From NCBI GenBank assembly GCA_003056245.1, contig MVDH01000001.1, forward strand, positions 485,028 to 549,027: 64,000 nt of DNA, written 5' to 3'. The DNA is from Cellvibrio sp. 79 (GTDB lineage: Bacteria; Pseudomonadota; Gammaproteobacteria; Pseudomonadales; Cellvibrionaceae). Each line of letters begins with the position of its first letter. Positions within the stretch are counted from its first letter, which is position 1. The notes under the pieces were generated by a model, which was not told the origin of the DNA, did no database searches, and saw only the letters and a program-made list of their open reading frames with translations. A program made the translations under genes and the position numbers. Of the stretch, positions 48,489 through 63,567 are shown one piece after another.

Positions 48489-48504
48489 GCCGGCTTTATT
48501 TTCC
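48474..48504 (+). terminator. Terminator overlapping the srmB stop codon
   Basis: GCCGGC (48474-48479) pairs with GCCGGC (48489-48494; the hexamer is its own reverse complement), followed by TTTATTTT. The stem begins inside the last codons of srmB. Confidence 0.7.
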
Positions 48505-48976
48505 CTCTTTAATACCGCTTGGCTATGTCACTTTTATTGCAAAGAAGTGATTGACCCACATCAAAAATAAGCCTAGTATCAAAACAAGGCGACGAATACA
48601 ACCAGTAGTTGCCCACTACAATCTGAACCACTATTGGTTGCTTTTTTCGAAAGCGATTGGGGTTCAGAATCACAAACGAATTTAGCAATTGCGGGCGATG
48701 TTCGCGAACTGGTTTGATTCGGCCTCGCGTCATCTTCCTGTCACAACTTTTTGTTTCACTGAATTTGTTTGTTGTTTGAACTGATGTTTAAATTGCAGAT
48801 CTAACGAGTTAGTTGGTTTTAGTTTTTATATTTTCAAAAACATTTTATATTTTATATATCGAGAGGAGGAGCAAACGACTGATCGACACAAACAACTTGC
48901 GTAAATCGGGTGACTCACATTAACGGGTATTGCTTAAATGCTCGTGTTATTTACCGACCGAAGGGGATTATGATTT
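48505..48976 (+). promoter_or_regulatory. Long upstream region of phoH with attenuator-like hairpins
   Basis: 472 bases without a supported gene. A stem AACCAGTAGT (48600-48609) / ACTATTGGTT (48630-48639), 10 bp with one G-U, is followed by GCTTTTTTC and looks like an intrinsic terminator. GTAGT (48605-48609) can alternatively pair with ACTAC (48615-48619), and TCTGAACC (48622-48629) with GGTTCAGA (48661-48668). The region nearer phoH is AT-rich and contains GAGAGGAGGAG (48860-48870). An 11-codon frame (48938-48973) overlaps the phoH ribosome site. The role of these elements is inferred. Confidence 0.4.
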
Positions 48977-49783
48977 ATGGCAAAAAAATCGCATGCCAGA
49001 CGCAGTGCAAATCACCAACATTTTGACGATAACAACTATTCGACGTCACGGCATAAGTCGCGAAAGAATCCACGGACTGATGACAATATCGTCGACCTTA
49101 AATCCCGTTCGCAACAACTTGAAACTGCTTACTCTCCGCCTCGCTCTCCCCAACCACTTCGCGCCAAGACAAAATCCCAGCAAGAATATATCCACGCTAT
49201 TAGTACGCATATGCTCACGTTTGGTATTGGCCCAGCCGGTACTGGTAAGAGTTATTGTGCTGGTGCGTTAGCGGCTGAAGCGCTGGAGTCTGGCCGTATC
49301 GAGCGAATCATTCTCACTCGCCCGGCAGTCGAATCCGGGGAGAATCTTGGCTTTTTGCCTGGTGATCTGGATCAAAAATTCTCTGTTTATATTGATGCTT
49401 TCCGCGATATTCTCAACGAGCGCCTGGGCGCGGGTACAGTTGATTATTGTTTGCGCCACGGTCGTATCGTGGCAGCACCGCTGGCATTTATGCGCGGAAA
49501 GACCTTTAACAGCAAAACCTTTGTAATTCTTGATGAAGCGCAAAACACTACTCCTGCGCAAATGAAAATGTTCCTGACTCGTATCGGTGAAGATTGCAAA
49601 GTAGTAATTAATGGTGATATCAAGCAGAGCGATATTCGTGGGCCCAATGGTTTGGCTGATGCCGTTGAGCGCTTACGAGGTTTACCGAATGTTTATCTGC
49701 ATGAATTCGAGCGTGAAGATATAGTCCGCAGTGGTTTAGTGCGCGATATTATTGACCGTTACGAAGTACCTGAAGAAAGCTGA
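48977..49783 (+). CDS. phoH: PhoH-family ATPase
   Basis: A 268-residue cytoplasmic P-loop protein. The basic N-terminal ~60 residues are variable; the PhoH core has Walker A GPAGTGKSY (about 85-93), LTRPAVESGENLGFLPGDL, Walker B FVILDEAQNTTPAQMKMFLTR and VINGDIKQSD. E. coli PhoH is phosphate-starvation-induced; related proteins act with RNases or as helicase-like ATPases, and the exact role is unsettled. AAGGGGA lies about 10 bases before the ATG. The gene is monocistronic with a strong terminator. Confidence 0.93.
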   Translation: MAKKSHARRSANHQHFDDNNYSTSRHKSRKNPRTDDNIVDLKSRSQQLETAYSPPRSPQPLRAKTKSQQEYIHAISTHMLTFGIGPAGTGKSYCAGALAAEALESGRIERIILTRPAVESGENLGFLPGDLDQKFSVYIDAFRDILNERLGAGTVDYCLRHGRIVAAPLAFMRGKTFNSKTFVILDEAQNTTPAQMKMFLTRIGEDCKVVINGDIKQSDIRGPNGLADAVERLRGLPNVYLHEFEREDIVRSGLVRDIIDRYEVPEES

Positions 49784-49795
49784 TGTTCATTTGAC

Positions 49796-49836
49796 GCCGG
49801 AGGTTCTGCTGTGATTAGCAGAACCTCCGGCTTTTT
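49796..49836 (+). terminator. phoH terminator
   Basis: GCCGGAGGTTCTGCT (49796-49810) and AGCAGAACCTCCGGC (49817-49831) are exact reverse complements, 15 bp, with a 6-base loop, followed by five T. Confidence 0.95.
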
Positions 49837-49908
49837 GCATCTATAACTTGCTTATTAATTAGCTAGTCGACATCCTGCGCGTTTATTTCCCCGGTTCTAT
49901 TTATTCCT

Positions 49909-50718
49909 ATGAAAGATTTCCGTTGTCCTTTGTGTAAGCTGCCGTTGCATTTGAATCCACAAGGGTTTGCCTGTGAAAACGGCCATCAGTTTGATCGCGC
50001 CAAAGAAGGTTATTTCAATTTATTGCCAGTACAGAATAAGCGCTCGCGCGAACCCGGTGATCCTAAAGAACAATTGCAGGCACGCCGTCAATTTTTGCAG
50101 GCCGGTTTTTTTGATCCCCTCAGGCAGCGATTGCAAGTAGTAATTCCAAAAGAGGCACAAACGTTATTGGATATTGGTTGCGGCGAAGGTTACTTCACCC
50201 ATTCTTTCGCAGAAGCGTTACCCGACGCACAAGTTTATGGAATAGATATTGCCAAAGCCGGGGTGCGACTTGCCGCAAAATCGGCAATTGATAAAAACCG
50301 CAACCTATTTGCGGTGGCATCGAGTTTCGATTTGCCTTTTGCTGATCAATCCCTGGATGTGGTAACCCGCATCTACGCACCCAGTAAAGACGCAGAGTTA
50401 TGGCGTGTAATAAAGCCGGATGGTCTTTTGGTTATAGTTGCACCCGCTGAAAATCACTTGCTGGGTTTACGGCAGCGTATATATACCGAAGTGCGTCCAC
50501 ATGAAGCACCAGTGACACCGGAAGGATTTGAATTGGTAAGGCAGGAACGGTTGACCATTGACATGGAGATAAAAGACAAGACGCTATGTCAGGCATTGTT
50601 GGCTATGACACCTTTTGCGTGGCGCTTGTCGGCCGTACTTCGCCAACAAATCGAAGAGGAGGGCTTGGTGGATCAACTGGATTTCGGCATTTATATTTAT
50701 CAGCGACAAGATTGTTAA
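49909..50718 (+). CDS. rlmA: 23S rRNA (guanine-N1)-methyltransferase RlmA
   Basis: A 269-residue SAM-dependent enzyme that methylates G745 of 23S rRNA. The N-terminal zinc-binding residues are C6, C9, C22 and H26 (FRCPLCK, FACENGHQFD). The methyltransferase core has LLDIGCGEGYFTHSFAEALP and GIDIAKAGVRLAAK. Length matches E. coli RlmA (269). It is a single gene. Confidence 0.94.
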   Translation: MKDFRCPLCKLPLHLNPQGFACENGHQFDRAKEGYFNLLPVQNKRSREPGDPKEQLQARRQFLQAGFFDPLRQRLQVVIPKEAQTLLDIGCGEGYFTHSFAEALPDAQVYGIDIAKAGVRLAAKSAIDKNRNLFAVASSFDLPFADQSLDVVTRIYAPSKDAELWRVIKPDGLLVIVAPAENHLLGLRQRIYTEVRPHEAPVTPEGFELVRQERLTIDMEIKDKTLCQALLAMTPFAWRLSAVLRQQIEEEGLVDQLDFGIYIYQRQDC

Positions 50719-51196
50719 GATGCGCAATAAGCAGAGTTTGGTTTATAGCAATGTGATATTGGTCACAAAGTTAAATTCTATTGTGGAATAAATCTTGATT
50801 GAGTTATGATGAAAACCGAGGTTTGGATGTTTTTTGTGCCATATTTGTACATGCATTGATGTTCTATCAGATGTTCCGTTGTAAGAGTTACCAAACCTGT
50901 TTTTTGCTGTGCCGCCAGAGCATTGCTGTTTTGCCAAAGTCCGGATTTTTATCGGGTATGGCTTGGCTGCAACAGGGAATTTTTTGCCTCGCCCAACGTT
51001 TTACATATGCCGATAATAATAAATCCGCCACTATTTCATCGGAACTCACTGTTATGTGGGGCATTTGCCGTGAATTGACTAGAATTCAGAAGGATTCTGG
51101 TGTTCATCATGTTGGTTGGAAATGTGAATACCTTGATGTTAGGGACGCTAAAACAGAATTAAATTTCTAACATTTAAAAAAATCGGAAACACACTA
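50719..51196 (+). promoter_or_regulatory. Long upstream region of the TolC-OmpA gene with a CRP-type site
   Basis: 478 bases. A perfect CRP/Vfr consensus (TGTGA-N6-TCACA) lies at 50752-50767. If it activates in a class II arrangement the transcript would start near 50801, leaving a leader of nearly 400 bases before 51197. A TTG-initiated frame (50799-51170, 123 codons, seven Cys) fills part of it, but its composition is unlike the neighbouring proteins and it lacks a ribosome site, so I do not call it a gene. The leader content is otherwise unexplained. Confidence 0.5.
50752..50767. promoter_or_regulatory. CRP/Vfr-type binding site
   Basis: TGTGATATTGGTCACA matches TGTGA-N6-TCACA at all ten conserved positions. 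By chance a perfect match would be expected only about 0.06 times in 64 kb at equal base frequencies. It lies 430 bases upstream of the TolC-OmpA gene and just after rlmA. Confidence 0.7.
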
Positions 51197-52978
51197 ATGA
51201 TCCGTTCACTTTTTCAACCCGGCATTTCGTTCAAACAATCGCTGCTTTTTATTTCCCTGTGTGCACTTTCCACTGGCGCTTTTTCCCAAGCGATTACAGT
51301 GAAGGATGCTGCATTAAAAGCCCTTGAATCCAACCCCGATGTACAAGCCAGCTGGCATGAGTTTAAAGCCGCTGCATTTGATGTACGTGTAGCCCGTGCG
51401 GGTTATTTACCTTCTGTAGATCTTGCGGCAACTGCCGGTGAGACTTCACGTGATTATGATGGCCGGGGAACTTATTCAACCGCACAAGGGCAGGTGACTC
51501 TCACGCAAATGTTGTTTGATGGCTTCCGTACATCCGGAGAAGTAAAGCGAATGGATGGTATTCGCCTGGTGCGTTATTACGAATTATTGAATACGGTAGA
51601 AACCACCGCGCTTGATGCGGTGCGCGCTTACGAAGATGTAAAACGCAATCGCGATCTGGTTGAACTTGCGCGTAATAATTATGCCAAGCATCGCGAAGTG
51701 TATTCGCAAATTGAAGAACGCGTATCCACTGGTGTTGGCCGTCGTGTCGATCTGGAACAAGTCGCCGGACGTTTGGCGTTGGCGGAATCCAATTTATTAA
51801 CTGAAGCTTCCAATTTGCATGATGTCACTGCGCGTTATTTGCGTATCGTCGGGCAATTACCTGCGGAACAATTAACGGCAACTGATTTGGCGGCGCAACA
51901 ATTGCCTCCATCGGTACGTGAAGCTTTGCTGCTTGCCTATCAGGGAAACCCCGGTTTTCATGCAGCGATTAAAAATATCAGTGCAGCGGAATCTGCAGTA
52001 AAAGTTGAACGTTCCGGTTATTACCCCAAAGCGGAATTGCGCGCGCGCGGCGTAACCAATCGCAACCAAAATGGTTTTGATAATCGTAACGACCCGGATT
52101 CATGGGGTGATGAAAATGCGGTTGAATTAGCGATTACCTACAATCTTTACAGTGGTGGCGCAAATCGCGCGGCGGTGCGCCGTTCATTGGAGCAAGTGAA
52201 CCAGGCAAAAGATTTACGTGATCAAGCGTGTGTGGATTTACGTCAAAATACACAAATTGCCTACAACGATTCGCAACGTATTCGCGAGCAATTAATTTCA
52301 CTGCAACAACATAAATTATCCAGTGATAAGGTTCGTTCGGCTTATGCGGAGCAATTTAATATCGGTCAACGCACACTGCTGGATTTACTCGATGCTGAAA
52401 ATGAATATTTCCAGGCAAGCCGTGCTTTGATTACTGCGGAAGGGGAATTGGAAGTTGCGTATGCCCGTTCATTGGCGGCGATGGGTAGTTTGTTACCTGC
52501 ACTGGGTATTGTGCGTGACGGCTTGGGAATTTTGCACGATGTTAAAGTAGAAGATTCATTGAAAATTTCTGAATCTGCTTGCCCTAATGATGCCCCAACA
52601 GCATTGAATCGTGGAGACCTGATTAGCGCGTTAACACCGGTTAGTGGCGATGCGTTGTTCGATGTGGGTAGTTCAGAATTAAAGCCTGGTGCTGCGCAAA
52701 AACTGGACAATGTTGTTGCGAGTATTAAAGCAACGCAAAACGTTGTACAAATCAAAATTGAAGGTCACACCGATAATACCGGCACCGATGCGCTGAATGT
52801 TCCGCTTTCCAAAGCGCGCGCACAACGTGTTCGTGACTATTTTATATTGAATGGTCTGGAATCAATTCCAATGACAGTAGACGGATTTGGTGCCGCCCGC
52901 CCGACGGCTGACAATACAACAGAAGCAGGTAAAGCGGCCAACCGCCGTGTAGATATCACCGTAACCCGCAGTCGTTAA
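51197..52978 (+). CDS. TolC-family outer-membrane channel fused to an OmpA peptidoglycan-binding domain
   Basis: A 593-residue protein with signal peptide (about 1-31, ending AFSQ). Residues about 33-445 are a TolC/OEP-type protein: two repeats of helical hairpins, LTQMLFDGFRTSGEVKRM and ITYNLYSGGANRAAVRRS mark the homologous strands, and FNIGQRTLLDLLDAENEYF the second coil. Residues about 485-593 are an OmpA C-terminal domain (IKIEGHTDNTGTDALNVPLSKARAQRV). LapE/AggA-type TolC proteins serve adhesin export. The OmpA fusion would anchor the exporter to peptidoglycan. A terminator follows, so the ABC and adaptor genes downstream have their own promoter. Confidence 0.88.
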   Translation: MIRSLFQPGISFKQSLLFISLCALSTGAFSQAITVKDAALKALESNPDVQASWHEFKAAAFDVRVARAGYLPSVDLAATAGETSRDYDGRGTYSTAQGQVTLTQMLFDGFRTSGEVKRMDGIRLVRYYELLNTVETTALDAVRAYEDVKRNRDLVELARNNYAKHREVYSQIEERVSTGVGRRVDLEQVAGRLALAESNLLTEASNLHDVTARYLRIVGQLPAEQLTATDLAAQQLPPSVREALLLAYQGNPGFHAAIKNISAAESAVKVERSGYYPKAELRARGVTNRNQNGFDNRNDPDSWGDENAVELAITYNLYSGGANRAAVRRSLEQVNQAKDLRDQACVDLRQNTQIAYNDSQRIREQLISLQQHKLSSDKVRSAYAEQFNIGQRTLLDLLDAENEYFQASRALITAEGELEVAYARSLAAMGSLLPALGIVRDGLGILHDVKVEDSLKISESACPNDAPTALNRGDLISALTPVSGDALFDVGSSELKPGAAQKLDNVVASIKATQNVVQIKIEGHTDNTGTDALNVPLSKARAQRVRDYFILNGLESIPMTVDGFGAARPTADNTTEAGKAANRRVDITVTRSR

Positions 52979-52998
52979 TAACCGTAATACCGGGTTTC

Positions 52999-53039
52999 CA
53001 AAAAACGCATCAAGTCCTGTGAGTTGATGCGTTTTTTTA
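52999..53039 (+). terminator. Terminator after the TolC-OmpA gene
   Basis: AAAACGCATCAA and TTGATGCGTTTT are exact reverse complements with a 10-base loop, followed by more T (seven in all). Confidence 0.92.
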
Positions 53040-53230
53040 TGGCCGCACCTTTTTTGTGGTGATGTAGCTGTTGCGATGGTTTTACAGAATGCTCGACGAA
53101 AAACTATGGCCAAAAACCGGCAAGGAAATTGCGAGTACATAAATCGCCATCTATATTACAGTGGCCTTATTACGCGCGTTCGCAAATTGGCACTGATTTA
53201 TAGCGTTTTCATGAGTGACACGGAGCAAGC

Positions 53231-55402
53231 ATGACCCTTGATGTTCAACCCGCGATGGACTATTCCGCCCCTGTTAATAAGGGTGGACCTTTGCTTGAGT
53301 GTTTATTAGTTGTTGCCCGTGCACACCAGCTAACTGCTACGCGTGAAGTTTTATTGGCGGGATTGCCGCTTGAAACCCAGGATCTGAATCCTTCTTTATT
53401 TGCACGCGCAGCGGTTCGCGCTGGCCTTACCAGCAAAATTATCCAGCGTTCCCTGGAACAATTAAACCCGGCGTTATTTCCAGTGGTGTTATTGCTCAAC
53501 AACAATAATGCTTGTGTCTTGTTGTCTCTTGATGCGAATAAAGCGCGAGTCATTTTTCCCGAGCTGGGTGAAGCCAGCGCTTCAATTTCAACTGCAGAGT
53601 TGCATGCGCAATATACCGGTCGTGCAATTTATGCGCGCCCGAGTGAGCGCATTGATGCGCGCGCTGCGGATATCGGCAAAACCTCTAATCAACAGAATCG
53701 CGATGCCCATTGGTTTTGGGGCGTTATTGCGCAGCACAAATATTTATATCGCGATGTATTGTTAACGGCGTTGCTGATCAATTTTTTTGCATTGGTGTCG
53801 CCGCTATTCGTGATGAATGTTTACGATCGAGTCGTTCCCAACCATGCAACTGATACCTTGTGGATTTTGTCCCTCGGTATGCTAATTGCGATAAGCGCCG
53901 ATTTTGCATTGCGTATGATGCGCGCGTGGTTTGTCGATCTCGCCGCAAGCCGTGTTGATGTCACGCTGTCCGCAACGATTATGGAGCGGGTGTTGGGAAT
54001 GAAATTATCCGAGCGCCCGGCATCTGTTGGTTCATTTGCGTCCGGATTGCAATCGTTTGAAGCGGTGCGCAGTTTTATTTCATCGGCCACTATTCTGGCG
54101 CTGGTGGATTTGCCGTTCGTATTACTGTTTATGGTTGTGGTGTTGATGATTTCATGGCCGCTGATTTTCCCGATTTTAGTGGGCGTTATTTTAGTCATGC
54201 TTTACACCGCCGCCGTACAACACAAAATGCACTTGTTATCGGAAAGTTCGATGCAAGCATCGGCACAACGTAACGCTACATTAGTGGAAAGTCTCGCCAG
54301 TCTGGAAACATTGAAAGTATTAGGTGCAGAAGGCCGCATGCAATCCATCTGGGAAAAAACGACATTGCTGGTATCGCGCGTGGGCGTGAAAATGCGTTTG
54401 CTTTCCGGTTCGGTGGGTAATAGCACGGCGTGGATCCAGCAAGCGGTATCGGTAGTTATTATTATCGTGGGTGTGTATCAAATTATTGATGGCAATTTGA
54501 GCCAGGGCGGTTTGATTGCGGCCTATATGCTTTCGTCACGTATCATGGCACCGGTAGGGCAAACTGCCGGATTATTGATGCAATACCATAGCGCTGCCAC
54601 AGCGTTAACGGCACTGGAACAAATTATGGCAAAACCGGTGGAACGTCCGCTGGATAAACAATGGATTAGTCGCCCGCGTTTACAAGGCGGGATTGAATTT
54701 AAAAAAGTTGCATTTAAATATCCGCAAGATGAACGTGAAGTGTTGCGCGATGTTTCATTGAAAATTAATCCGGGCGAACGCGTTGCTGTGCTCGGCCGCA
54801 ATGGTTCCGGTAAAACAACGCTGGAAAAATTAATCGCCGGTTTATATGAAGCGAGTTCGGGTACGGTATTGCTGGATGGAATTGATATTCGCCAATTGGA
54901 CCCCGCTGAGTTGCGACGCAATATGGGTTACGTTGCCCAGGATGTGAATTTATTTTTTGGTTCGCTGCGCGACAATATTGCGCTGGGTGCAACCCACGCA
55001 ACTGATGAAATGATTCTTGAAGCCGTGCGCTTGAGTGGCTTGACTGAATTTGTAAACCAGCATCCCATGGGTCTTGCCATGCCTGTGGGTGAGCATGGTC
55101 AATTATTATCAGGCGGTCAGCGGCAATCGGTCAGTATTGCGCGGGCATTGTTGAATGATCCTCCTATTTTATTAATGGATGAACCCACCGGTTCAATGGA
55201 TCACACTAGCGAAGAAGAATTCAAACGCAATTTATTGCAATTTGCTGCGCATAAAACCTTGCTGGTGATTACGCATCGCACTTCGCTGCTGGAATTGGTC
55301 AATCGCATTATTGTGATTGACGGCGGCAAAATTGTGGCGGATGGTCCGAAGGATCAGGTCGTTGAAGCCTTGCGCCAGGGCCGCATCGGGAGGGCTTCCT
55401 GA
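53231..55402 (+). CDS. lapB: Type I secretion ABC transporter (LapB-like)
   Basis: A 723-residue ABC exporter. The N-terminal ~140 residues are a C39-peptidase-like domain that lacks the catalytic Cys (LVVARAHQLTATREVLLAGLPL), as in RTX adhesin exporters. The membrane domain is about 165-440. The ATPase domain has Walker A GRNGSGKTT (about 522-530), signature LLSGGQRQSVSIARAL, Walker B LLMDEPTGSMD and the H-loop ITHRTS. It exports the adhesin with the adaptor and TolC partners. The stop TGA shares a base with the ATG of the adaptor gene. Confidence 0.92.
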   Translation: MTLDVQPAMDYSAPVNKGGPLLECLLVVARAHQLTATREVLLAGLPLETQDLNPSLFARAAVRAGLTSKIIQRSLEQLNPALFPVVLLLNNNNACVLLSLDANKARVIFPELGEASASISTAELHAQYTGRAIYARPSERIDARAADIGKTSNQQNRDAHWFWGVIAQHKYLYRDVLLTALLINFFALVSPLFVMNVYDRVVPNHATDTLWILSLGMLIAISADFALRMMRAWFVDLAASRVDVTLSATIMERVLGMKLSERPASVGSFASGLQSFEAVRSFISSATILALVDLPFVLLFMVVVLMISWPLIFPILVGVILVMLYTAAVQHKMHLLSESSMQASAQRNATLVESLASLETLKVLGAEGRMQSIWEKTTLLVSRVGVKMRLLSGSVGNSTAWIQQAVSVVIIIVGVYQIIDGNLSQGGLIAAYMLSSRIMAPVGQTAGLLMQYHSAATALTALEQIMAKPVERPLDKQWISRPRLQGGIEFKKVAFKYPQDEREVLRDVSLKINPGERVAVLGRNGSGKTTLEKLIAGLYEASSGTVLLDGIDIRQLDPAELRRNMGYVAQDVNLFFGSLRDNIALGATHATDEMILEAVRLSGLTEFVNQHPMGLAMPVGEHGQLLSGGQRQSVSIARALLNDPPILLMDEPTGSMDHTSEEEFKRNLLQFAAHKTLLVITHRTSLLELVNRIIVIDGGKIVADGPKDQVVEALRQGRIGRAS

Positions 55403-56856
55403 TGAATGTGCCACAAGGGCAAGCGCCGATTTCGCCCACAAAACATACGCGCGATAGAATCTGGTTTGAAAAAATCGGGCACTGGTTAAATAAATTGGGA
55501 ATCCCGGCAAGCAAAACCATTGATAAGGTTTACGCGCGTTGGCTGGACCCATTACATGAGCAACCAAAAGATTGGGTAACCGATTCCGATTGGGCGCGTT
55601 TGCAGCAGGAGCCAATAAAAGCCCGCATTATTTTGCGCGCAATTGCCCTGATTATTTTTATCTTGCTGGTGTGGGCTGCGTTCGCGCCGCTTGATGAAGT
55701 TGCGCGCGGTGAAGGCAAGGTGATTCCATCCTCGCAGTTGCAAGTGATCCAATCGTTTGATGGCGGTGTGGTGCAGGAAGTATTGGTGCGCGAAGGGCAG
55801 GTGGTTAATAAAGATGATTTGCTGCTGCGTATTGATCCAACCCGTTTTATTTCAACGTTCCGCGAAAACCGCGCCGAATTTTTATCGCTGCAAGCACGTG
55901 CGGCGCGTTTGCAGGCGTTGACATCCAATAGTGAATTTAAATTGCCGGATGGTTTTTCCACCGATGCGCCGGATATTGCCGCGCATGAAAGTAGTATGTA
56001 TCAATCCAATCGCAAGGAATTGGATGAGCAATTAAGTATCGCGCGTAGTCAATTGGATCAACGCAGCGAAGAATTAAATGAAGTGCGCGCAAAATTAACC
56101 CAGGCAACACGTGCATTGGAATTGGCCACGCAAGAACTAAATGTCACCAAACCATTGTTAGCCAGTGGTGCAATTTCTGAAGTGGAAATTTTGCGTTTGG
56201 AAGGGGAAGTTGCCAACGCAAAAGGTGCGCGCGAACAAGCAGCGGCACAAGAGTCGCGTTTGATTCTGGCAATTGAAGAGTCGCAAGGAAAATTGCGCGA
56301 AACAGAATTGCTCGCGAGTAATAAATGGCGTGCTGAATTATCGGAAGTGCTGAGCAAAATTGCAGCGCTAAGTGAAAGCAGTACCGGGCTTGCTGATAAA
56401 ATCAAATACGCCGAAATCCGTTCGCCGGTGCGCGGCACTGTCCAACGCGTATTTACGAATACGGTGGGTGGTGTAGTTCAACCGGGCCATGAAGTGATCG
56501 AGATGGTGCCGTTGGATGATGATCTGTTGGTGGAAGCAAAAGTATCGCCCAAGGATATTGCGTTTTTACATCCGGGCCAGGAAGCGATTGTGAAATTTAC
56601 CGCTTACGATTTTGTAGTTTATGGTGGCTTGCGCGGCAAGGTTGAACACATTAGTCCGGATACGATTACCGATGAAAAAGATCGCACTTTTTATATTGTG
56701 CGTGTGCGCACCGAACGCGCCGGTTTTGATCCGACCTTGCCAATTATGCCGGGCATGATGACGCAGGTAGATATTCTCACCGGTAAGAAAACCGTATTGG
56801 CTTATTTATTAAAACCTGTGTTGCGCGCACAACAAAATGCAATGACTGAACGATGA
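55402..56856 (+). CDS. lapC: HlyD-family type I secretion adaptor (LapC-like)
   Basis: A 484-residue membrane-fusion protein. The cytoplasmic N-terminus (about 1-72) precedes one membrane helix at about 75-95 (ILRAIALIIFILLVWAAFAP). Then come a lipoyl/barrel-sandwich half (GEGKVIPSSQLQVIQSFDGG), a long coiled coil (about 200-320) and the returning half with the beta-barrel (IRSPVRGTVQRVFTNTVGG). It bridges the ABC transporter and TolC. It overlaps the LuxR-type gene by four bases (ATGA). Confidence 0.92.
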   Translation: MNVPQGQAPISPTKHTRDRIWFEKIGHWLNKLGIPASKTIDKVYARWLDPLHEQPKDWVTDSDWARLQQEPIKARIILRAIALIIFILLVWAAFAPLDEVARGEGKVIPSSQLQVIQSFDGGVVQEVLVREGQVVNKDDLLLRIDPTRFISTFRENRAEFLSLQARAARLQALTSNSEFKLPDGFSTDAPDIAAHESSMYQSNRKELDEQLSIARSQLDQRSEELNEVRAKLTQATRALELATQELNVTKPLLASGAISEVEILRLEGEVANAKGAREQAAAQESRLILAIEESQGKLRETELLASNKWRAELSEVLSKIAALSESSTGLADKIKYAEIRSPVRGTVQRVFTNTVGGVVQPGHEVIEMVPLDDDLLVEAKVSPKDIAFLHPGQEAIVKFTAYDFVVYGGLRGKVEHISPDTITDEKDRTFYIVRVRTERAGFDPTLPIMPGMMTQVDILTGKKTVLAYLLKPVLRAQQNAMTER

Positions 56857-57458
56857 CCCAGCACCTTTTTATCGCGCCTGCGGATATCCAATCGCCGCGC
56901 TGGCAACAAGCATTTCCTTCCGCCGTTATCGCACCGGATTCTGCACAAATTGCAGAGGCTGATTGCGTATGGTTGTTATTGCGCGATGAAAATGATTTTG
57001 CGCAGCTGCAAGTATTAAGTGGCAGCGACAAAAAAATAATTGCGATGACGTTGATCGAAAATGCGCAACAAGCCCGCCAAGCGCTGGAGGCGGGCGCGAG
57101 TGGTTATGTGCATTACCTTGCGGTGCCGCAGGTATTGGAGCAGGTGGCTCAGGTTGTTGCAGCGGGAGGCATGTGGCTCGGCGCGGATTTAATGCGGCAG
57201 TTGGTACTGGCGACAGCGCGTATATTGCCAGCGCCGGTAGCTAAACCGGTCAATGGCACCAAAGTCGATTTATCCCAGCTTACCAGCCGTGAATTGGCTG
57301 TTGCGGAATTGGTGGCGGCCGGAAAAACCAATAAAGAAGTTGCACGTGAACTGTATATTACCGAGCGCACCGTTAAAGCCCATTTGGGATCTGCTTTTGA
57401 TAAGTTGAAAGTGCGCGACCGCCTTCATCTGGTATTGGTGATGGCGGCCAACAGTTAA
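56853..57458 (+). CDS. LuxR/NarL-type regulator with degenerate receiver domain
   Basis: A 201-residue protein translationally coupled to the lapC-like gene. The C-terminal 65 residues are a classical LuxR helix-turn-helix (LTSRELAVAELVAAGKTNKEVA, ITERTVKAHLGSAFDKLKVRDR). The N-terminal part (about 1-115) has a receiver-like alpha/beta pattern (ALEAGASGYVHYLAVPQVLEQVAQVVAAGGMWLG) but lacks a clear phosphoacceptor Asp and acidic pocket. It may control the adhesin locus, and probably acts without phosphorylation. The target is an inference from context. Confidence 0.8.
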   Translation: MTQHLFIAPADIQSPRWQQAFPSAVIAPDSAQIAEADCVWLLLRDENDFAQLQVLSGSDKKIIAMTLIENAQQARQALEAGASGYVHYLAVPQVLEQVAQVVAAGGMWLGADLMRQLVLATARILPAPVAKPVNGTKVDLSQLTSRELAVAELVAAGKTNKEVARELYITERTVKAHLGSAFDKLKVRDRLHLVLVMAANS

Positions 57459-57610
57459 ATAACCCGTTTGATGGCACTTAAAACATTTTTACTGAAATTT
57501 CCTGCCATCTATTCATTATTCTTTTATAGAAATAAAAAAAATCTGTTTATTGTCCTTTAGTCCAATGGCGCAATTTTCCTCGCTAACTAGACTGCACATC
57601 ATACCCTCAA

Positions 57611-57626
57611 TGTGATGTTGTTCACG
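57611..57626. promoter_or_regulatory. CRP/Vfr-like site before the adhesin gene (9 of 10 matches)
   Basis: TGTGATGTTGTTCACG matches TGTGA-N6-TCACA in nine of ten positions and ends 21 bases before the adhesin ATG. One such near-match is expected by chance every ~35 kb, so it gains weight only from the perfect site upstream of the TolC-OmpA gene. Its position, close to the ribosome site, would suit repression or a leader role. Confidence 0.35.
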
Positions 57627-57647
57627 TTTATCCTGTGGAGTCTATAA

Positions 57648-58730
57648 ATGAGTAATGCTGTTGCGACAGTTGCGTTCCTTCAAGGTCAGGCTTGGGCTAA
57701 AGCTCCGGATGGCAGTTTACGTCCGTTGTCAGTTGGCAGCGTATTGAATGCCGATGAGACGCTGGTAACCGCCCAGGGTGCGCAAGTGCAACTGGATTTT
57801 GGCAACGGTGAGCCGATTCAGGTAAACGGTGGTCTTGAAGTGGCAATGAGCCGCGACTTCAACAACGACACTGCAACTGATGCTGACGATGCAGCGCTGA
57901 ATGATGCCAGTGTGCAGGAAGCGTTAACCGTGTTGGAACAGGGCGGCGACCTGTTGGAAGAGTTGGAAGAAACTGCTGCGGGTGATAATGGCGGCGGCGG
58001 TTCGGACGGCAACAATAGTTTTGTCCAGCTCACCCGCATTTTTGAACAAACTGATTCCCAATTCTTCACCTATCAAAATACGACCGTTGCGGAAAACACA
58101 GTTGAAGAGACTGATGGTAATGGCGTTTATACCAACCGCGCGCCTTCAGCCACTGACCAAATCCTCGCTGGTAACGAAGACGAAGTTATTAGCGGTCAGA
58201 TTATTGCGACTGATATCGAAGGCGATGCCCTCACTTATGTTGTAACCACTGCGCCTGCTAACGGCACCCTGACTCTGGATGCAACTACCGGCCAATTTAT
58301 CTTCACGCCCAATGGCAATTACAACGGCAGCGACAGCTTTGTCGTGACTGTGACCGATGGTCGTGGCAATAGCAGTATCAGCACCGTCAGCTTGAATATC
58401 GCGCCTGTTAATGATGCACCTACCGCCAATAACATTAGCCTTACTACCGCTGAAGATGCGTCGGTTAATGGCCAGGTTATCGCTCAGGATGTCGAGGGCG
58501 ATACTTTGGCATATTCAGTATCCGGCCAGCCTGCAAATGGCACCGTGACTTTGAATGCGGCGACCGGCAGCTTTGTTTACACCCCGAATGCGAACTACAA
58601 CGGCAGCGATTCATTTGTTGTCACTATCAGTGATGGCAAAGGTGGTACTACTATTTTTTGTTGCGCTTTTGCATTCGCGGTGCTCATTGTGTGTAACACA
58701 AAAGCGCAACAAAAAACGCACCGCTTATAA
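57648..58730 (+). pseudogene. Giant LapA-like adhesin, truncated: retention module and two repeats, then fused to attC sequence
   Basis: The frame encodes 360 residues, but only about 335 (to 58652) are adhesin. Residues 1-112 are the N-terminal retention module of LapA-type adhesins, with TAAG at residues 109-112, matching the LapG protease site. Then come a Gly/Asp linker and two ~96-residue cadherin/VCBS-like repeats (about 150-245 and 246-335; NRAPSATDQILAGNEDEVISG, NDAPTANNISLTTAEDASVNG). LapA proteins are thousands of residues long and end in RTX repeats and a secretion signal; these are missing. At 58653 the frame runs into an attC arm and stops after 25 unrelated codons. GGAG precedes the ATG. 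Without its C-terminal signal it should not be exported. Confidence 0.85.
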
Positions 58731-58741
58731 CAACGTTAGAA
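58654..58741 (+). other. Truncated attC site at the adhesin junction
   Basis: A perfect 18-bp inverted repeat (58654-58671 and 58699-58716; arms contain GTTGCGCTTTTG and CAAAAGCGCAAC) is followed by CGCACCGC and a GTTAGAA core (58735-58741). The expected 5' partner (CTAAC plus the complement of CGCACCGC) is absent because the adhesin sequence takes its place. Confidence 0.65.
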
Positions 58742-58766
58742 AAAATCAAAATCAAGAGCAAACCCC

Positions 58767-58994
58767 ATGAATGGTCTAGTAAGTTATTTTGAAAGCGTAG
58801 ACGATGAGACATTACGATTGGTATTTAAAGACGTTTCATCCCAAAGCGAGAGCGCCAACTTTTGGGGAAATGCCGTTTTATTCACGTACAATGACTACCC
58901 AATTGAAAATCTTAAGTCTCTAAATCTAAGCAATGAAGAGTTCGCTATGATTGGGCAAAATCTAATTATCCGTCTTCTTGCTTTGGATAAATGA
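58767..58994 (+). CDS. Cassette A protein, unknown function
   Basis: 75 residues, no signal peptide, hydrophilic and acidic (MNGLVSYFESVDDETLRLVF). The start is the first ATG 25 bases after the attC core and has AAGAGC upstream. It matches no family I recognise. Its position between two attC sites marks it as an integron cassette gene; such genes are often small and of unknown function. It is not supported by neighbours. Confidence 0.55.
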   Translation: MNGLVSYFESVDDETLRLVFKDVSSQSESANFWGNAVLFTYNDYPIENLKSLNLSNEEFAMIGQNLIIRLLALDK

Positions 58995-59092
58995 TTTAAG
59001 TTGTTATCCAAAATTTAAATATTTTGTATTACCTAATACATAGTTTTGAATTTAGCCAACTTTCTATTTTGGCAATGTGTAAAAAAGTAAAT

Positions 59093-59221
59093 TTCTAACA
59101 AGGCGCAGCAACACGCCACTTCGTGGCTGGACAGTTTGTAAGTCGCGCTTTTGTGGTTTTGCTACGCAAAAGTATTCCACAACGCACAACTTACAAACTG
59201 CCGTTGTGCTAAACGTTAGCT
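59093..59221 (+). other. attC site after cassette A
   Basis: Starts at TTCTAAC (59093-59099), ends at GTTAGCT (59215-59221). CAGTTTGTAAGT (59132-59143) and ACTTACAAACTG (59189-59200) are exact reverse complements forming the central stem; further pairing extends inward with bulges. Confidence 0.8.
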
Positions 59222-59247
59222 GAAAGCAAGACTAGGAGAAATTGACC

Positions 59248-59625
59248 ATGATCTCAGACAAAGATATTGAAAAAGCTAAATTGCGAACGGACTACAATTT
59301 GGAATCTCCTCATCATGAACATAATGATTGCATTCGAATTGCATATGAGTGGCTTGATGCACAAAAGAAAACAAAAACTATTCCTCAGTGTGGGCATGCA
59401 TCCAAAAGTTTAATCGAGCGTTGGGCCGGTAGGTACGTATCACAGTCAGATGTTTCTGTGGCTGCTGAACTTCACCCTGAGATACATGGTAAATTTCCGC
59501 GCTTTAACATTAGCGCAAGGTTAACCGAGCCATCATTGTCACGCTTAAATAATATCGGTGAGGCTTTTAAGCATGAAAATTATCGTGAATTTCATAAATC
59601 AAAAGATTATTCAGTTCACGAATAA
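59248..59625 (+). CDS. Cassette B protein, unknown function
   Basis: 125 residues from the ATG at 59248, which has AGGAGAA 9 bases upstream. It begins MISDKDIEKAKLRTDYNLES and is rich in charged and His residues, with no membrane segment. The protein looks globular and alpha-helical (RIAYEWLDAQKK, KSLIERWAGRYV). I recognise no family. It lies between attC sites, so it is cassette-borne. Confidence 0.6.
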   Translation: MISDKDIEKAKLRTDYNLESPHHEHNDCIRIAYEWLDAQKKTKTIPQCGHASKSLIERWAGRYVSQSDVSVAAELHPEIHGKFPRFNISARLTEPSLSRLNNIGEAFKHENYREFHKSKDYSVHE

Positions 59626-59629
59626 AGGC

Positions 59630-59762
59630 AGCTAACAAATCGCTGAAGCACCGCACACTACGTGGGCTGGACAGTGTGTAAGTCGCGGCTTTGTGGTTTT
59701 GCTGCGCAAAAGTAATCCACAAAACCACAACTTGCAAACTGCCGTTGAGCACGGCGCTAGGC
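59630..59762 (+). other. attC site after cassette B, mutated core
   Basis: Starts AGCTAAC (59630-59636). It shares GGCTGGACAG-GTGTAAGTCGCGG-like and CCACAACTTGCAAACTGCCGTTGAG-like arms with the sites after cassettes A and F. The 3' core reads GCTAGGC (59756-59762) instead of GTTRRRY, a change that may reduce recombination at this site. Confidence 0.75.
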
Positions 59763-59775
59763 GGTAATCCAAAAG

Positions 59776-60132
59776 ATGACTACATACAAAGATTGGTCTT
59801 GCTGGACGTACGTATTGGTAGATGGCTACCTCGCTAGTGGTGGTTGCATCTTGGATTTTGACTTCGAGAAAAAATGGATTCAATATCAAAGATATTACCA
59901 ATACCCAAAGGAGGGACAAAATATTAATGTCCCTATCGAAGAGGCTCAATTTCAAGAGGTTTGGGTCGATCCTGAAAGGCGAAGTATATTGGAAAAGGAA
60001 ATTATCATGGGATTCGACGAAGCTAAAGTTCCAGAGTCTTTCATTAAACTTACAGATCAAGATCCTAAAGAATATTTTGGTGGGATAGTGACTTCAGATT
60101 CGACATATTTACTTCGAGATGAAGATGTATAG
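59776..60132 (+). CDS. Cassette C protein, unknown function
   Basis: 118 residues (MTTYKDWSCWTYVLVDGYLA), acidic, aromatic-rich, no signal peptide. It begins 13 bases after the attC core. It contains a beta-rich start and an acidic end (RDEDV). I recognise no family. It is flanked by attC sites. Confidence 0.55.
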   Translation: MTTYKDWSCWTYVLVDGYLASGGCILDFDFEKKWIQYQRYYQYPKEGQNINVPIEEAQFQEVWVDPERRSILEKEIIMGFDEAKVPESFIKLTDQDPKEYFGGIVTSDSTYLLRDEDV

Positions 60133-60141
60133 CAATTAAGC

Positions 60142-60242
60142 ACCTAACAAAGTTGTCAAATTGACAGTTTTTCCGTCGCTCCTTTTTGTGCTAAATAACA
60201 CAAACGGGTCCTCCAAAACTGCAATTTACAACGGCGTTATAT
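60142..60242 (+). other. attC site after cassette C, with extrahelical bases
   Basis: ACCTAAC (60142-60148) matches RYYYAAC exactly. The arms from 60152 (GTTGTCAAATTGACAGTTTT) and 60215-60232 (AAAACTGCAATTTACAAC) pair except for two unpaired bases, the extrahelical-base pattern that integrases read in folded attC. The core is GTTATAT (60236-60242). Confidence 0.75.
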
Positions 60243-60265
60243 TTATCGTGCAGAAGGTAAAAAAT

Positions 60266-60526
60266 ATGAATGACGGCGTAGTGACTAGATTTCCATATTC
60301 ACCTGATAGAACAAAAAGACTTAATTTAATTAAGCGTATTGTTCCATGTCAGGTTTCTGGTCGTTGGTTACAATTTCCAGAGGCTTTACATTGTCAACCT
60401 GACGGCACTTACATGCTTATTAATGTTATGACTGATAATGGTGAAGGGAAAGAGCGCAAGCTTTGTGAGTTGGTGTTATATAAGGAAGATCTCGAAGCAA
60501 TTCTCAAATATTACGTTAAAACTTAA
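60266..60526 (+). CDS. Cassette D protein, unknown function
   Basis: 86 residues from the ATG at 60266, with AGAAGG about 9 bases upstream. The longer frame from 60161 is rejected because it runs through the attC site. The protein starts MNDGVVTRFPYSPDRTKRLN; it is basic and appears globular. I recognise no family. The 105 bases after the stop are AT-rich and hold no gene. Confidence 0.55.
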   Translation: MNDGVVTRFPYSPDRTKRLNLIKRIVPCQVSGRWLQFPEALHCQPDGTYMLINVMTDNGEGKERKLCELVLYKEDLEAILKYYVKT

Positions 60527-60631
60527 ATTTTTCATTCGGTAATAGAAAATACTGCGCTTGTGTTGGTTAGCAACAAGGCTTTACTGTTTGTGTGTTTATT
60601 TCTGAAATTCTCTAAAACAAGGAAGTCAATA

Positions 60632-60744
60632 ATATAACAAAGCAATCAAACGGATGGTTTTTAAATTGCATTTTTGCCATTCCGCTGCGCTCCATTTTAT
60701 GGCAAAAGAGCAATTTAAAAACCACCTTTATCGCGGAGTTATGA
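60632..60744 (+). other. attC site after cassette D, containing the next start codon
   Basis: Begins ATATAAC (60632-60638). GGTTTTTAAATTGC and GCAATTTAAAAACC are exact reverse complements; the core is GTTATGA (60738-60744), whose ATG (60741) is the probable start of the cassette E gene. Confidence 0.75.
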
Positions 60745-61235
60745 GTAAAAATATGATTCTCAAATTAGGTCATTCATTAAGGTTAGTAGTTATTCTTCTA
60801 AATCTTTTTGTTTGTGATGCTTTTGCTCGAAATTACATAGATGATTATGAGTCAAACGATACATCACTTAGCGACTTATTTTTTTTAATACTTGCAATAG
60901 TTCTAAGCCTACCAATATATTGGGTTATTTTTGCTGTTTTAGATAAGATTGATAAATGGCTGCCAAATAAATATTACAGCGGCTTTAGTTCTATACGTCG
61001 AAAAGCATGGCTGGCAATTCCATTTATATGTAGTTTGCTTGTAGCTTGGCCAGTTTTTGCAGGTTGGGGGTTTTATGCTTCCTTTATTCTTATCGTAATA
61101 TTACTGTTTTTATTTTTGGCGTTACCGCCAATTGATTGGCTTTCTTCTAAAATAGGGATAGATATTCTTGAGGTTTTTATTTTGTTGAGTCTAGTTTTCG
61201 GTGTCGTTTATGCAATATATAAGTTCGTTTCATAA
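60741..61235 (+). CDS. Cassette E protein, polytopic membrane protein
   Basis: 164 residues starting at the ATG inside the attC core (an ATG at 60753 is also possible). It has about five hydrophobic segments: about 9-26, 47-66, 92-110, 112-131 and 145-162. The N-terminal frame from 60654 runs through the attC arms and is rejected. The stop codon is inside the next attC. The topology suggests an inner-membrane protein; the function is unknown. Confidence 0.6.
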   Translation: MSKNMILKLGHSLRLVVILLNLFVCDAFARNYIDDYESNDTSLSDLFFLILAIVLSLPIYWVIFAVLDKIDKWLPNKYYSGFSSIRRKAWLAIPFICSLLVAWPVFAGWGFYASFILIVILLFLFLALPPIDWLSSKIGIDILEVFILLSLVFGVVYAIYKFVS

Positions 61236-61282
61236 CAAATCGTGCCAGGCTCGCACACTTCGTGTGCTGGACAGTTTGTAAG
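61230..61282 (+). other. 5' half of an attC site after cassette E
   Basis: Starts TCATAAC (61230-61236) and continues through CACTTCGTGTGCTGGACAG and TTTGTAAG, closely like the sites after cassettes A and F. It then breaks off at about 61282, where the structured insert begins; the matching right half is missing. Confidence 0.7.
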
Positions 61283-61690
61283 GTGTACCAGAGTAAATAG
61301 TTTTATCGCGTAGCGATATTGGTATTTACGTAACTTCGCAAGAGATGGTGGTAGGCCCACCTCATTCGCTGTGCAGTAAGTGATTGCAAACCACTTCAAG
61401 CGGCATTGATAAAGAGTCATTGTCGTGAGCGTTGAAGAAAAGTCGAATGTAATTCGGCAGGTAGGATAAACGGAGACGAACGCAAGTGAACCTTTGATGA
61501 GGCGTCGTGATGTCCAACCCGTTGTCAAAATCAGCGACCCTTACAATCGCTGAGAGAAATCGGAAAGAAAACTGCTTACTGATCCGATGGCAACCGGCGT
61601 AAAGAAGGCGTGACCGTTTATCAGGCTTTTGTGAGGAACAATGTTGGCGGACGCATAAATGCGCCGCAAATCTTAACGTTAGTATCACAC
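61283..61690 (+). other. Structured ORF-free insert in the attC region; possible group II intron 5' fragment
   Basis: About 400 bases with no supportable coding frame but many stem-loops. GTAAATA (61292-61298) pairs with TATTTAC, and ATCGC pairs with GCGAT inside it. The sequence starts GTGTACC (group II introns start GUGYG) and contains GACGAACGCAAGTGAACC, which recalls domain I of bacterial group II introns. No reverse transcriptase and no domain V are visible, so if it is an intron it is a remnant. At the right end ATGCGCCGC and a GTTAGTA core (61684) look like the 3' half of another attC. Confidence 0.4.
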
Positions 61691-61701
61691 AAGGAGATCC
61701 C

Positions 61702-62421
61702 GTGAATAATCAAGTTAAAATATCTATCTTTATTTTGTTATGTATGTTTTTTGCTGAGCGTTCTCATTCAGTAAGCTTCAGCTGCGAGGCTCAGTTAAAT
61801 TCTATAGAATTAAAAATTTGTGAAGTTCGTGAGCTTGGAGCTCTTGATGACGAGCTAACTGTGCTTTATAAGAAAAAAATTGAAGAGGTTAAGTTTAAGC
61901 AGCCTCTTGTGGTCAGCCAAAGAAACTGGATCAAAAAAAGTCGAAACTTATGCACTGATATTGCCTGCATTAAAACTTCGTACAAAAGTAGAATTGACGA
62001 ACTTAATAACTGGAGTGACACTGAGGCTTTTCAATACAACAAAATTCCAGAATCATATATCGGAAAATTTAGAGCGCCTGCTTGCATCGAAGCCATTAAA
62101 GAAAATGGTGATTGGAAATGCATTTCCCCTGCGTGGAGCAACATTGATATTTCAAGAAAAAATGAAGAAAGCGCATTTTTTAGTATGAAAACTCGGGTAG
62201 CAGGTGGAGGCGGTTGCCAATTGTCAGGAATTGCCAGAGTACAAGGGGAATTTCTAATTGGTACTGGTAAGTCCAAATCTGGTGAGCGCGTTTGTATTCT
62301 GACTTTCAAATTACAAGGTGAAAATATAACCATAGAAAAGGAGGATGAAGCATGTGGGAAAATGGGCCTGTGTGGTTATGGTGACACTTTTCAAGAGTGG
62401 AAAACGTACAGCAAATACTAA
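61702..62421 (+). CDS. Cassette F protein, LprI-like (DUF1311) exported protein
   Basis: 239 residues from a GTG with AAGGAG 6 bases upstream. The signal peptide is about 1-23. Residues about 27-105 resemble the LprI/DUF1311 domain (SFSCEAQLNSIELKICEVREL, QRNWIKKSRNLC, KTSYKSRIDEL) with the four-Cys pattern seen in lysozyme-inhibitor-like lipoproteins. Residues about 110-239 form a second, Cys-containing domain that I do not recognise. The stop codon lies inside the following attC. Confidence 0.7.
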   Translation: MNNQVKISIFILLCMFFAERSHSVSFSCEAQLNSIELKICEVRELGALDDELTVLYKKKIEEVKFKQPLVVSQRNWIKKSRNLCTDIACIKTSYKSRIDELNNWSDTEAFQYNKIPESYIGKFRAPACIEAIKENGDWKCISPAWSNIDISRKNEESAFFSMKTRVAGGGGCQLSGIARVQGEFLIGTGKSKSGERVCILTFKLQGENITIEKEDEACGKMGLCGYGDTFQEWKTYSKY

Positions 62422-62546
62422 CAAAGTGCTGCAACTCGCGCACTTCGTGCGCTGGACAGTTTGTAGTTCGCGGCTTTGTGGTGTTGCTGCGCAAAAATAT
62501 TCCACAGCGCGCAACTTACAAACTGCCGTTGTGCTAAACGTTAGGT
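62416..62546 (+). other. attC site after cassette F
   Basis: TACTAAC (62416-62422) to GTTAGGT (62540-62546), 131 bases. The right half is almost identical to that of the site after cassette A (CAACTTACAAACTGCCGTTG, GTGCTAAACGTTAG). Confidence 0.8.
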
Positions 62547-62552
62547 AAGGCA

Positions 62553-62948
62553 ATGAATGAAAATTTAATTAAGCTGCTAGAAACAATAAAAAGCGTCCCT
62601 GATTTCTATGGGGTTGAATTTAGTTCAATCAACGACACCAATGTGTTTGGTGACAACGCTCTTCATTGTGTTTGCCTTTGGGGTGACATAGAAGCTGCCA
62701 AACTGTTAATAGAAAATGGAATTGAAATTAATCAGCACGGTGAAGGCGGTTTCACGCCACTTAACATGGCACTAGACTTTAAGCATCAAGAATTGGCCAA
62801 CTATTTAATATCAGTGGGTGCTGACACAAGCGTTATCGGTGCTAAATTTGTATACGACGCTGAAAAAAGCAAGAAGCATATGCAAGGCATGGCTGCTGAA
62901 ATAAAAGCTCTTGAAGAGAAAATTAAGAATACATGTGGTAATGCCTAA
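62553..62948 (+). CDS. Cassette G protein, ankyrin-repeat protein
   Basis: 131 residues, cytoplasmic. Two ankyrin repeats: NVFGDNALHCVCLWGDIEAA, KLLIENGIEINQ, and GFTPLNMALDFKHQELANYLISVGADTS. A C-terminal helix (about 100-130) is rich in Lys and Glu. GTTAGGTAAGG just before the ATG provides the ribosome site, so the attC core partly forms it. Ankyrin repeats mediate protein contacts; many immunity-type proteins have them, but no toxin is adjacent. The stop is inside the next, truncated, attC. Confidence 0.75.
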   Translation: MNENLIKLLETIKSVPDFYGVEFSSINDTNVFGDNALHCVCLWGDIEAAKLLIENGIEINQHGEGGFTPLNMALDFKHQELANYLISVGADTSVIGAKFVYDAEKSKKHMQGMAAEIKALEEKIKNTCGNA

Positions 62949-62970
62949 CAAGCAACTGTGGTAAAAAAAC
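62943..62970 (+). other. Truncated attC 5' end at the array edge
   Basis: GCCTAAC (62943-62949) matches RYYYAAC exactly and contains the stop of the ankyrin gene. No GTTRRRY core or matching right arm follows before the next gene, so only the 5' end of an attC remains. Confidence 0.55.
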
Positions 62971-63113
62971 CTCAATTGGCGGCTGAAGATACATTTTTAA
63001 AGTCCTGGATTTATTGACTCGAACGTCCGCTTTTGTGGCGAAAGCAGAAACAAAAATTATTCATTTAACTATCGCCAAAATCTCAACCCACCAAAAACCA
63101 AGGACATTAACCA

Positions 63114-63482
63114 ATGATAGATTTCAATAACAAAGGCTTTTTTAAGCTCAAGCAAAATAGTGAATATGCTGAAAAGGTAAAGCAGTTGTTGCTGGAGGGC
63201 GAACAAATAATTGATTCCTATAAATCCATGCGCGATGGTGTGGTTTTTACCAATAAGCGAATCATTGCAGTGAATGTGCAAGGTATTACGGGTAGTAAAA
63301 AAGATTACACATCCCTGCCTTATAAAAATATCGTCGCCTACTCGGTAGAAACCGCAGGAACATTTGATTTGGATTCCGAGCTGGAATTGTATTTCTCAGC
63401 GGTAGGAAAAGTTAAATTCGAATTTAGTGGAAAAACTGCACTGCTTGAAATATCGAAATACATCTCCAAACATGTTTTATAG
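63114..63482 (+). CDS. Bacterial PH-domain protein
   Basis: 122 residues, cytoplasmic. The whole protein fits the bacterial Pleckstrin-homology-like fold: EKVKQLLLEGEQIIDSYKSM, DGVVFTNKRIIAVNVQG, KDYTSLPYKNIVAYSVETAGTF and a final helix (ALLEISKYISKHVL). AAGGA lies about 12 bases before the ATG. Function unknown; such proteins are widespread. Whether it is a further cassette cannot be decided, as no attC core precedes it. Confidence 0.75.
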   Translation: MIDFNNKGFFKLKQNSEYAEKVKQLLLEGEQIIDSYKSMRDGVVFTNKRIIAVNVQGITGSKKDYTSLPYKNIVAYSVETAGTFDLDSELELYFSAVGKVKFEFSGKTALLEISKYISKHVL

Positions 63483-63567
63483 CGTTCAAATAGGACAAGA
63501 AGACTCCGGTTATCCGAACTATCAAGAACTGGTATCTGACTATAAAAAATATCCCCCATTTGTTTAA
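63472..63567 (+). pseudogene. Possible remnant ORF overlapping the PH-domain gene
   Basis: A 31-codon frame (MFYSVQIGQEDSGYPNYQEL and on) overlaps the last 11 bases of the PH-domain gene in another frame. Its residues look protein-like (acidic, Tyr-rich), so it may be the tail of a decayed gene, but it is too short to identify. Confidence 0.25.

Follow-up and report, generated by a model that had tools for sequence, protein, structure and literature searches.

A LapA-type adhesin gene that runs into a truncated integron attC site in a Cellvibrio draft genome is most likely a chimeric assembly join

The window analysed here is a 64,000-nucleotide stretch of a Cellvibrio draft genome (G000; 5.7 Mb in 13 contigs), at positions 485028-549027 of its contig C1 (G000:C1). 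It carries the genes of a type I secretion system, followed by the start of a LapA-type adhesin gene that passes directly into an integron cassette array. The features discussed below are, in window coordinates:

51197..52978, + strand: lapE-like outer-membrane channel of the TolC family, 593 aa (Pfam OEP and OmpA; TIGR01844 at 266 bits, cut-off 225)
53231..55402, + strand: lapB-like type I secretion permease/ATPase, 723 aa (TIGR03375, type_I_sec_LssB, at 948 bits, cut-off 693)
55402..56856, + strand: lapC-like adaptor of the HlyD family, 484 aa (TIGR01843 at 397 bits, cut-off 209)
56853..57458, + strand: LuxR-type regulator, 201 aa (Pfam GerE)
57648..58652, + strand: first 335 codons of the lapA-type adhesin gene (NF033682, TAAG, two repeats; collinear with G010 and G014)
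58652..58653, no strand: point where lapA meets the inside of an attC site, most likely a chimeric assembly join (end of homology, attC structure)
58653..58739, + strand: attC site that lacks the outer part on its left (R''/L''); 18-base arms, R' box (GTTAG) at 58735-58739
58653..63500, + strand: integron cassette array with at least five attC-like sites, right end approximate (attC-attC similarity, low GC)

The secretion genes upstream of the adhesin had been described from the sequence alone as looking intact, and with the TolC-, LssB- and HlyD-type genes all above their NCBIfam cut-offs, that description holds. The adhesin frame itself (57648-58730) encodes 360 aa. Its LapA retention module matches NF033682 over residues 5-143 (99.2 bits, cut-off 50), and a TAAG motif lies at residue 109, which corresponds to the LapG cleavage motif of Pseudomonas fluorescens, cleavage here being a prediction. 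Two Big_9 (tandem-95) repeats follow, while RTX repeats and a type I target are absent from this frame. Among 20 genomes of the same genus, the closest relative is G010 (JAGKWO010000009.1, a metagenome bin), in which the N-terminal part of lapA is 91% identical; a second relative used throughout is G014 (C. mixtus J3-8). DNA homology to the lapA genes of these two stops at 58642 and 58648, respectively. Past the junction, the frame stays open for another 25 codons, made of sequence from the attC site. The adhesin N-terminus up to 58652 is as complete as the sequence-only reading had it, and the gapless, in-frame run into an attC site lacking its left end is borne out by both the open reading frame and the comparison of stems. 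The lack of any N at the join counts as a point against a chimera. Within the G000 genome, the 1,094-base stretch 57648-58741 occurs once.

The identity of the attC site rests on a perfect 18-base pairing of its arms (58654-58671 and 58699-58716), the longest found in 40 mononucleotide shuffles being 10, and on an intact R' box that is GTTRRRY-like. The 23 bases outside the stem find no complement on the left side, where 3 of 23 match in register and the best ungapped offset gives 12 matches. A search of the genome with the left half of the site returned the half itself, its own hairpin (E 0.012) and short chance matches, 28 rows in all with E <=10; that no separate left half turned up elsewhere counts against the chimera reading. 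Other attC-like repeats of the array lie near 59095, 59632 and 62418, with half an attC at 61233-61282, and the GC content is 0.39 in the array against 0.51 in the N-terminal part of lapA. These sites were compared by BLAST among themselves, as a home-made attC scanner gave mostly chance matches, and the pattern GTTRGNYG, found 35 times in the window against 27.4 expected, is not above chance. A full-length integron integrase gene is present on the same contig (G000:C1:1989312-1990298; TIGR02249 at 443.8 bits, cut-off 265), about 1.45 Mb from the array, and the 35 kb around it hold no attC similar to those of the window. An array without a neighbouring integrase is called CALIN; the present one resembles CALIN in being distant from an integrase gene on the same contig, but differs in that its first attC lacks the left end, at the join with lapA. 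Our literature search found no paper whose title concerned a truncated attC in an adhesin, and none on Cellvibrio with integron and attC.

Further along the array, the left half of an attC at 61233 is followed by group II intron-like DNA (61233-61680), with a match to Rfam RF01999 at 61347-61462 (95.4 bits). This match falls within an attC interrupted by intron-like DNA and was set aside as having no bearing on the junction. Parts of the same intron-like DNA are also found where C1 ends and where C10 begins, which makes it a repeat in which contigs end. Two more incomplete attC sites lie in the region G000:C9:1575000-1590000. One, lacking its left end, adjoins a group II intron reverse transcriptase gene (C9:1577703-1578947); the other, lacking its right end, adjoins an IS110-type transposase gene (C9:1580477-1581526).

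The remainder of the adhesin, which the sequence-only reading had proposed to look for in the rest of the genome, was found in part. The RTX region and the C-terminus lie on contig C11, where a stop-free stretch of 1,332 aa (C11:100384-104383) carries seven Big_9 repeats, RTX repeats and a T1SS_VCA0849 C-terminal target domain, at a scaffold gap and collinear with the relatives; the missing repeats themselves were not found. In a genome-wide scan for Big_9 (33 matches), scores above 60 bits occur only in the window frame and at C11:100421-103327. A LapG-type gene (Peptidase_C93) adjoins this C-terminal part in G000, and a lapD-type gene nearby is known in G000 by collinearity with G010 only, the genome in which LapD was found. 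Compared with G010, dN/dS amounts to 0.057 for the N-terminal part (335 codons) and 0.069 for the C-terminal part (1,331 codons). Such similar constraint on both halves fits an intact gene, to the extent that codon comparison can tell, as a recent break would stay invisible to dN/dS. The claims that the gene is cut by attC and that the exporter may have lost its main substrate thus find no support, since the C-terminal half, secretion target included, is present without stops.

What precedes the C-terminal part on C11 is a run of 10 N (C11:100374-100383). We take 10-N runs to be scaffold gaps; five of this length occur in the stretches of G000 examined, and one in G014. The DNA before this gap has an exact 40-base end overlap, C11:1-40 being identical to C11:100334-100373. 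Read across this closure, the gene there forms a single open frame of 777 aa, and contig C19 of G010 continues from the gene before the C11 gap straight into C11:1-6297. The G010 copies of the genes at the start of C11 include a RepA-type replication initiator (PF10134) and ParA-type proteins; relatives of the initiator, all at less than 60% identity, occur in 1,144 plasmid records. Judged by its sequence, C11:1-100373 is a plasmid-like circle of about 100 kb. Because the stretch closes on itself by an exact overlap, the plasmid-like neighbour of the C-terminal part is very probably false, the adhesin piece having been scaffolded onto a circle. Near the start of this circle, several predicted proteins resemble, by eye, parts of a type VI secretion system.

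In G010, the two parts of the gene lie on one contig. Window positions 47505-53053 and 53080-58642 align to C49:332002-343103, and C11:100384-110361 aligns to C49:344534-354454, at 84-87% DNA identity, with 1,430 bases of repeats between the two blocks. These 1,430 bases have no copy of their own in G000, where a search gave four matches (69-81%), all to repeats already placed. A single scaffold of G014 likewise carries both parts, with window 53109-58648 at C1:74063-79607 and C11:104817-118685 at C1:85739-99999 in four blocks, and its lapA is one frame of 2,247 aa. To judge from G010 and G014, the N-terminal and C-terminal parts in G000 would be continuous. The start of lapA is present in 18 of the 20 same-genus genomes, the two without an N-terminal match being 79% and 85% complete. 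Its frame reaches at least 1,111 aa in 15 of these 18, among which are all seven genomes assembled into no more than two contigs. The remaining three seem to owe their shorter frames to draft faults or contig ends: in G010 the frame changes after 341 aa, and in G011 and G005 it is still open where the retrieved DNA stops, a point taken as the contig end. Going by their assembled sequences, these other Cellvibrio drafts also break or shift frame in the lapA repeats.

It should be noted, as a point against the chimera reading, that G010 is a metagenome bin with a frame change in its own lapA. This change, after codon 341 (L062:10110-11213), falls close to the stop of the gene in G000. Nucleotides 894-1000 of the G010 gene, where G000 stops, recur at 1166-1272, the two copies sharing identical runs of 42, 34 and 26 bases. 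When exact repeats of at least 24 bases overlapping lapA nucleotides 900-1040 were sought, they were present in G010 and absent from G013, G014, G004 and G001, and the repeat block is thus not necessarily hard to assemble in every strain.

Taken together, the sequence comparisons suggest that lapA and the attC site were fused at 58652/58653 during assembly, a chimeric origin to which we assign a probability of roughly 0.83. The chromosome would then run from the secretion operon and the start of lapA through about 1.4 kb of tandem repeats into the C-terminal part and on to lapD and lapG. Assembly would have halted at either end of the repeat block. An integron-array contig would then have been attached by its end to the left stump, with no N between them, and a 10-N gap would have linked the right stump to one end of a circular plasmid contig. 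We observe directly which pieces are present, their order and their collinearity, as well as the end overlap of the plasmid; from these we infer the failure mode of the assembler and the length of the missing block. A single cause, an unassembled repeat block, accounts for both stumps and for their attachment to unrelated contig ends, and the missing part indeed begins at a scaffold break, at C11:100384 directly after the 10-N run, as a chimera predicts. Of the two origins that had been offered, recombination or an assembly join, it is the latter that is favored by the position of the C-terminal part at a scaffold gap and by its collinearity with the relatives' intact lapA.

The main alternative is a real rearrangement, in which the DNA broke both within the repeats of the adhesin and inside an attC in its folded form, the N-terminal part being joined to the array and the C-terminal part, lapD and lapG being moved elsewhere. 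The adhesin would then be gone, or reduced to a product of 360 residues that lacks a secretion target. The gapless, in-frame join speaks for such a rearrangement, as do the full-length integrase gene in the genome, a gene order at the array that differs from G010, and the attC sites interrupted by the group II intron and the IS110-type transposase gene nearby on C9. Against it stands the need for a second, independent fault, as 1,430 bases are found on neither side and the C-terminal part borders on a gap, with a plasmid end on the other side; a balanced real break would have kept these bases on one side, and their absence favors an assembly fault. Furthermore, the C-terminal part is stop-free with a low dN/dS, and no such fusion occurs in the other 18 lapA-bearing genomes, two of which end in lapA and are uninformative. 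We therefore consider a real rearrangement unlikely. A plasmid study describes deletions with one end inside an attC hairpin and no integrase motif (PMC10127599), which leaves a break at a folded attC conceivable. That the folded attC acted here as a breakage hot spot without integrase cutting, the break joining array and adhesin and so turning the adhesin off while exporter and regulators stayed intact, nevertheless strikes us as quite unlikely.

A canonical off-target insertion, in which the integrase recombined an attC with a secondary site in lapA, could draw on the attC and the full-length intI in the genome. According to that study, the integrase cuts the R' box at G|TT or G|NT (PMC10127599). 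Yet the R' box at 58735-58739 is intact, it is the roughly 23 bases outside the left foot of the stem that are missing at the join, and the join at 58652/58653 is not at a crossover, the nearest GNT triplets starting at 58644 and 58660. An inserted cassette, moreover, would begin with the TT of the R' side and not with half an attC. An integrase-made junction was rejected on the crossover position and is very improbable. Least probable is that a plasmid or other element truly inserted in lapA and that the C11 scaffold is correct, a reading prompted by the plasmid DNA that C11 puts beside the C-terminal part; the two ends of the plasmid stretch overlap by 40 exact bases, G010 continues across this closure too, and the N-terminal part is at neither plasmid end. 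Plasmid insertion into lapA was rejected on the end overlap.

With the assembly join as the preferred reading, the locus resembles the LapA/LapBCE/LapDG system of Pseudomonas fluorescens and FrhA/CraA of Vibrio cholerae, having a retention module, TAAG, tandem repeats, RTX repeats, a C-terminal type I target domain, an LssB-type exporter, and LapD- and LapG-type genes. It differs in that the gene lies on two contigs in this assembly, that a LuxR-type gene sits between lapC and lapA, and that the TolC-type protein carries an OmpA domain, located at the C-terminus of the channel (window 51197-52978). By analogy with the known LapA system, it would operate as an ordinary one, with a TolC/LssB/HlyD-type exporter, an adhesin whose N-terminal retention module keeps it in the outer membrane, and a LapG-type protease that cuts it near TAAG under control of a LapD-type receptor. 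The break at repeats and the stumps on unrelated contig ends are like assembly errors in tandem-repeat genes, a subject of earlier work (PMC5771137, PMC6868369). What differs here is that the partner contig end happens to come from an integron array, so that the fusion resembles recombination. If the join is an artefact, the strain most likely has a normal LapA-type adhesin gene, and counts of integron insertions or lost adhesins drawn from draft genomes would be misleading here. Were it real, an attC hairpin would have broken a chromosomal gene outside the cutting rule of the integrase.

The position of the array itself is a separate matter. Its right flank, a DUF899-like gene and a chemotaxis receptor (L022:1446 / L156:6575-8686), adjoins MBL-fold and TetR-type genes in G010 (names given by eye), and these are on C9 in G000. 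As the neighbours of the right flank differ from those in G010, the array is at a synteny break. It may well mark a genuine point of rearrangement, the doubtful part being its link to lapA. The genes beside DUF899 in G010 are found at C9:1608999-1617436 in G000.
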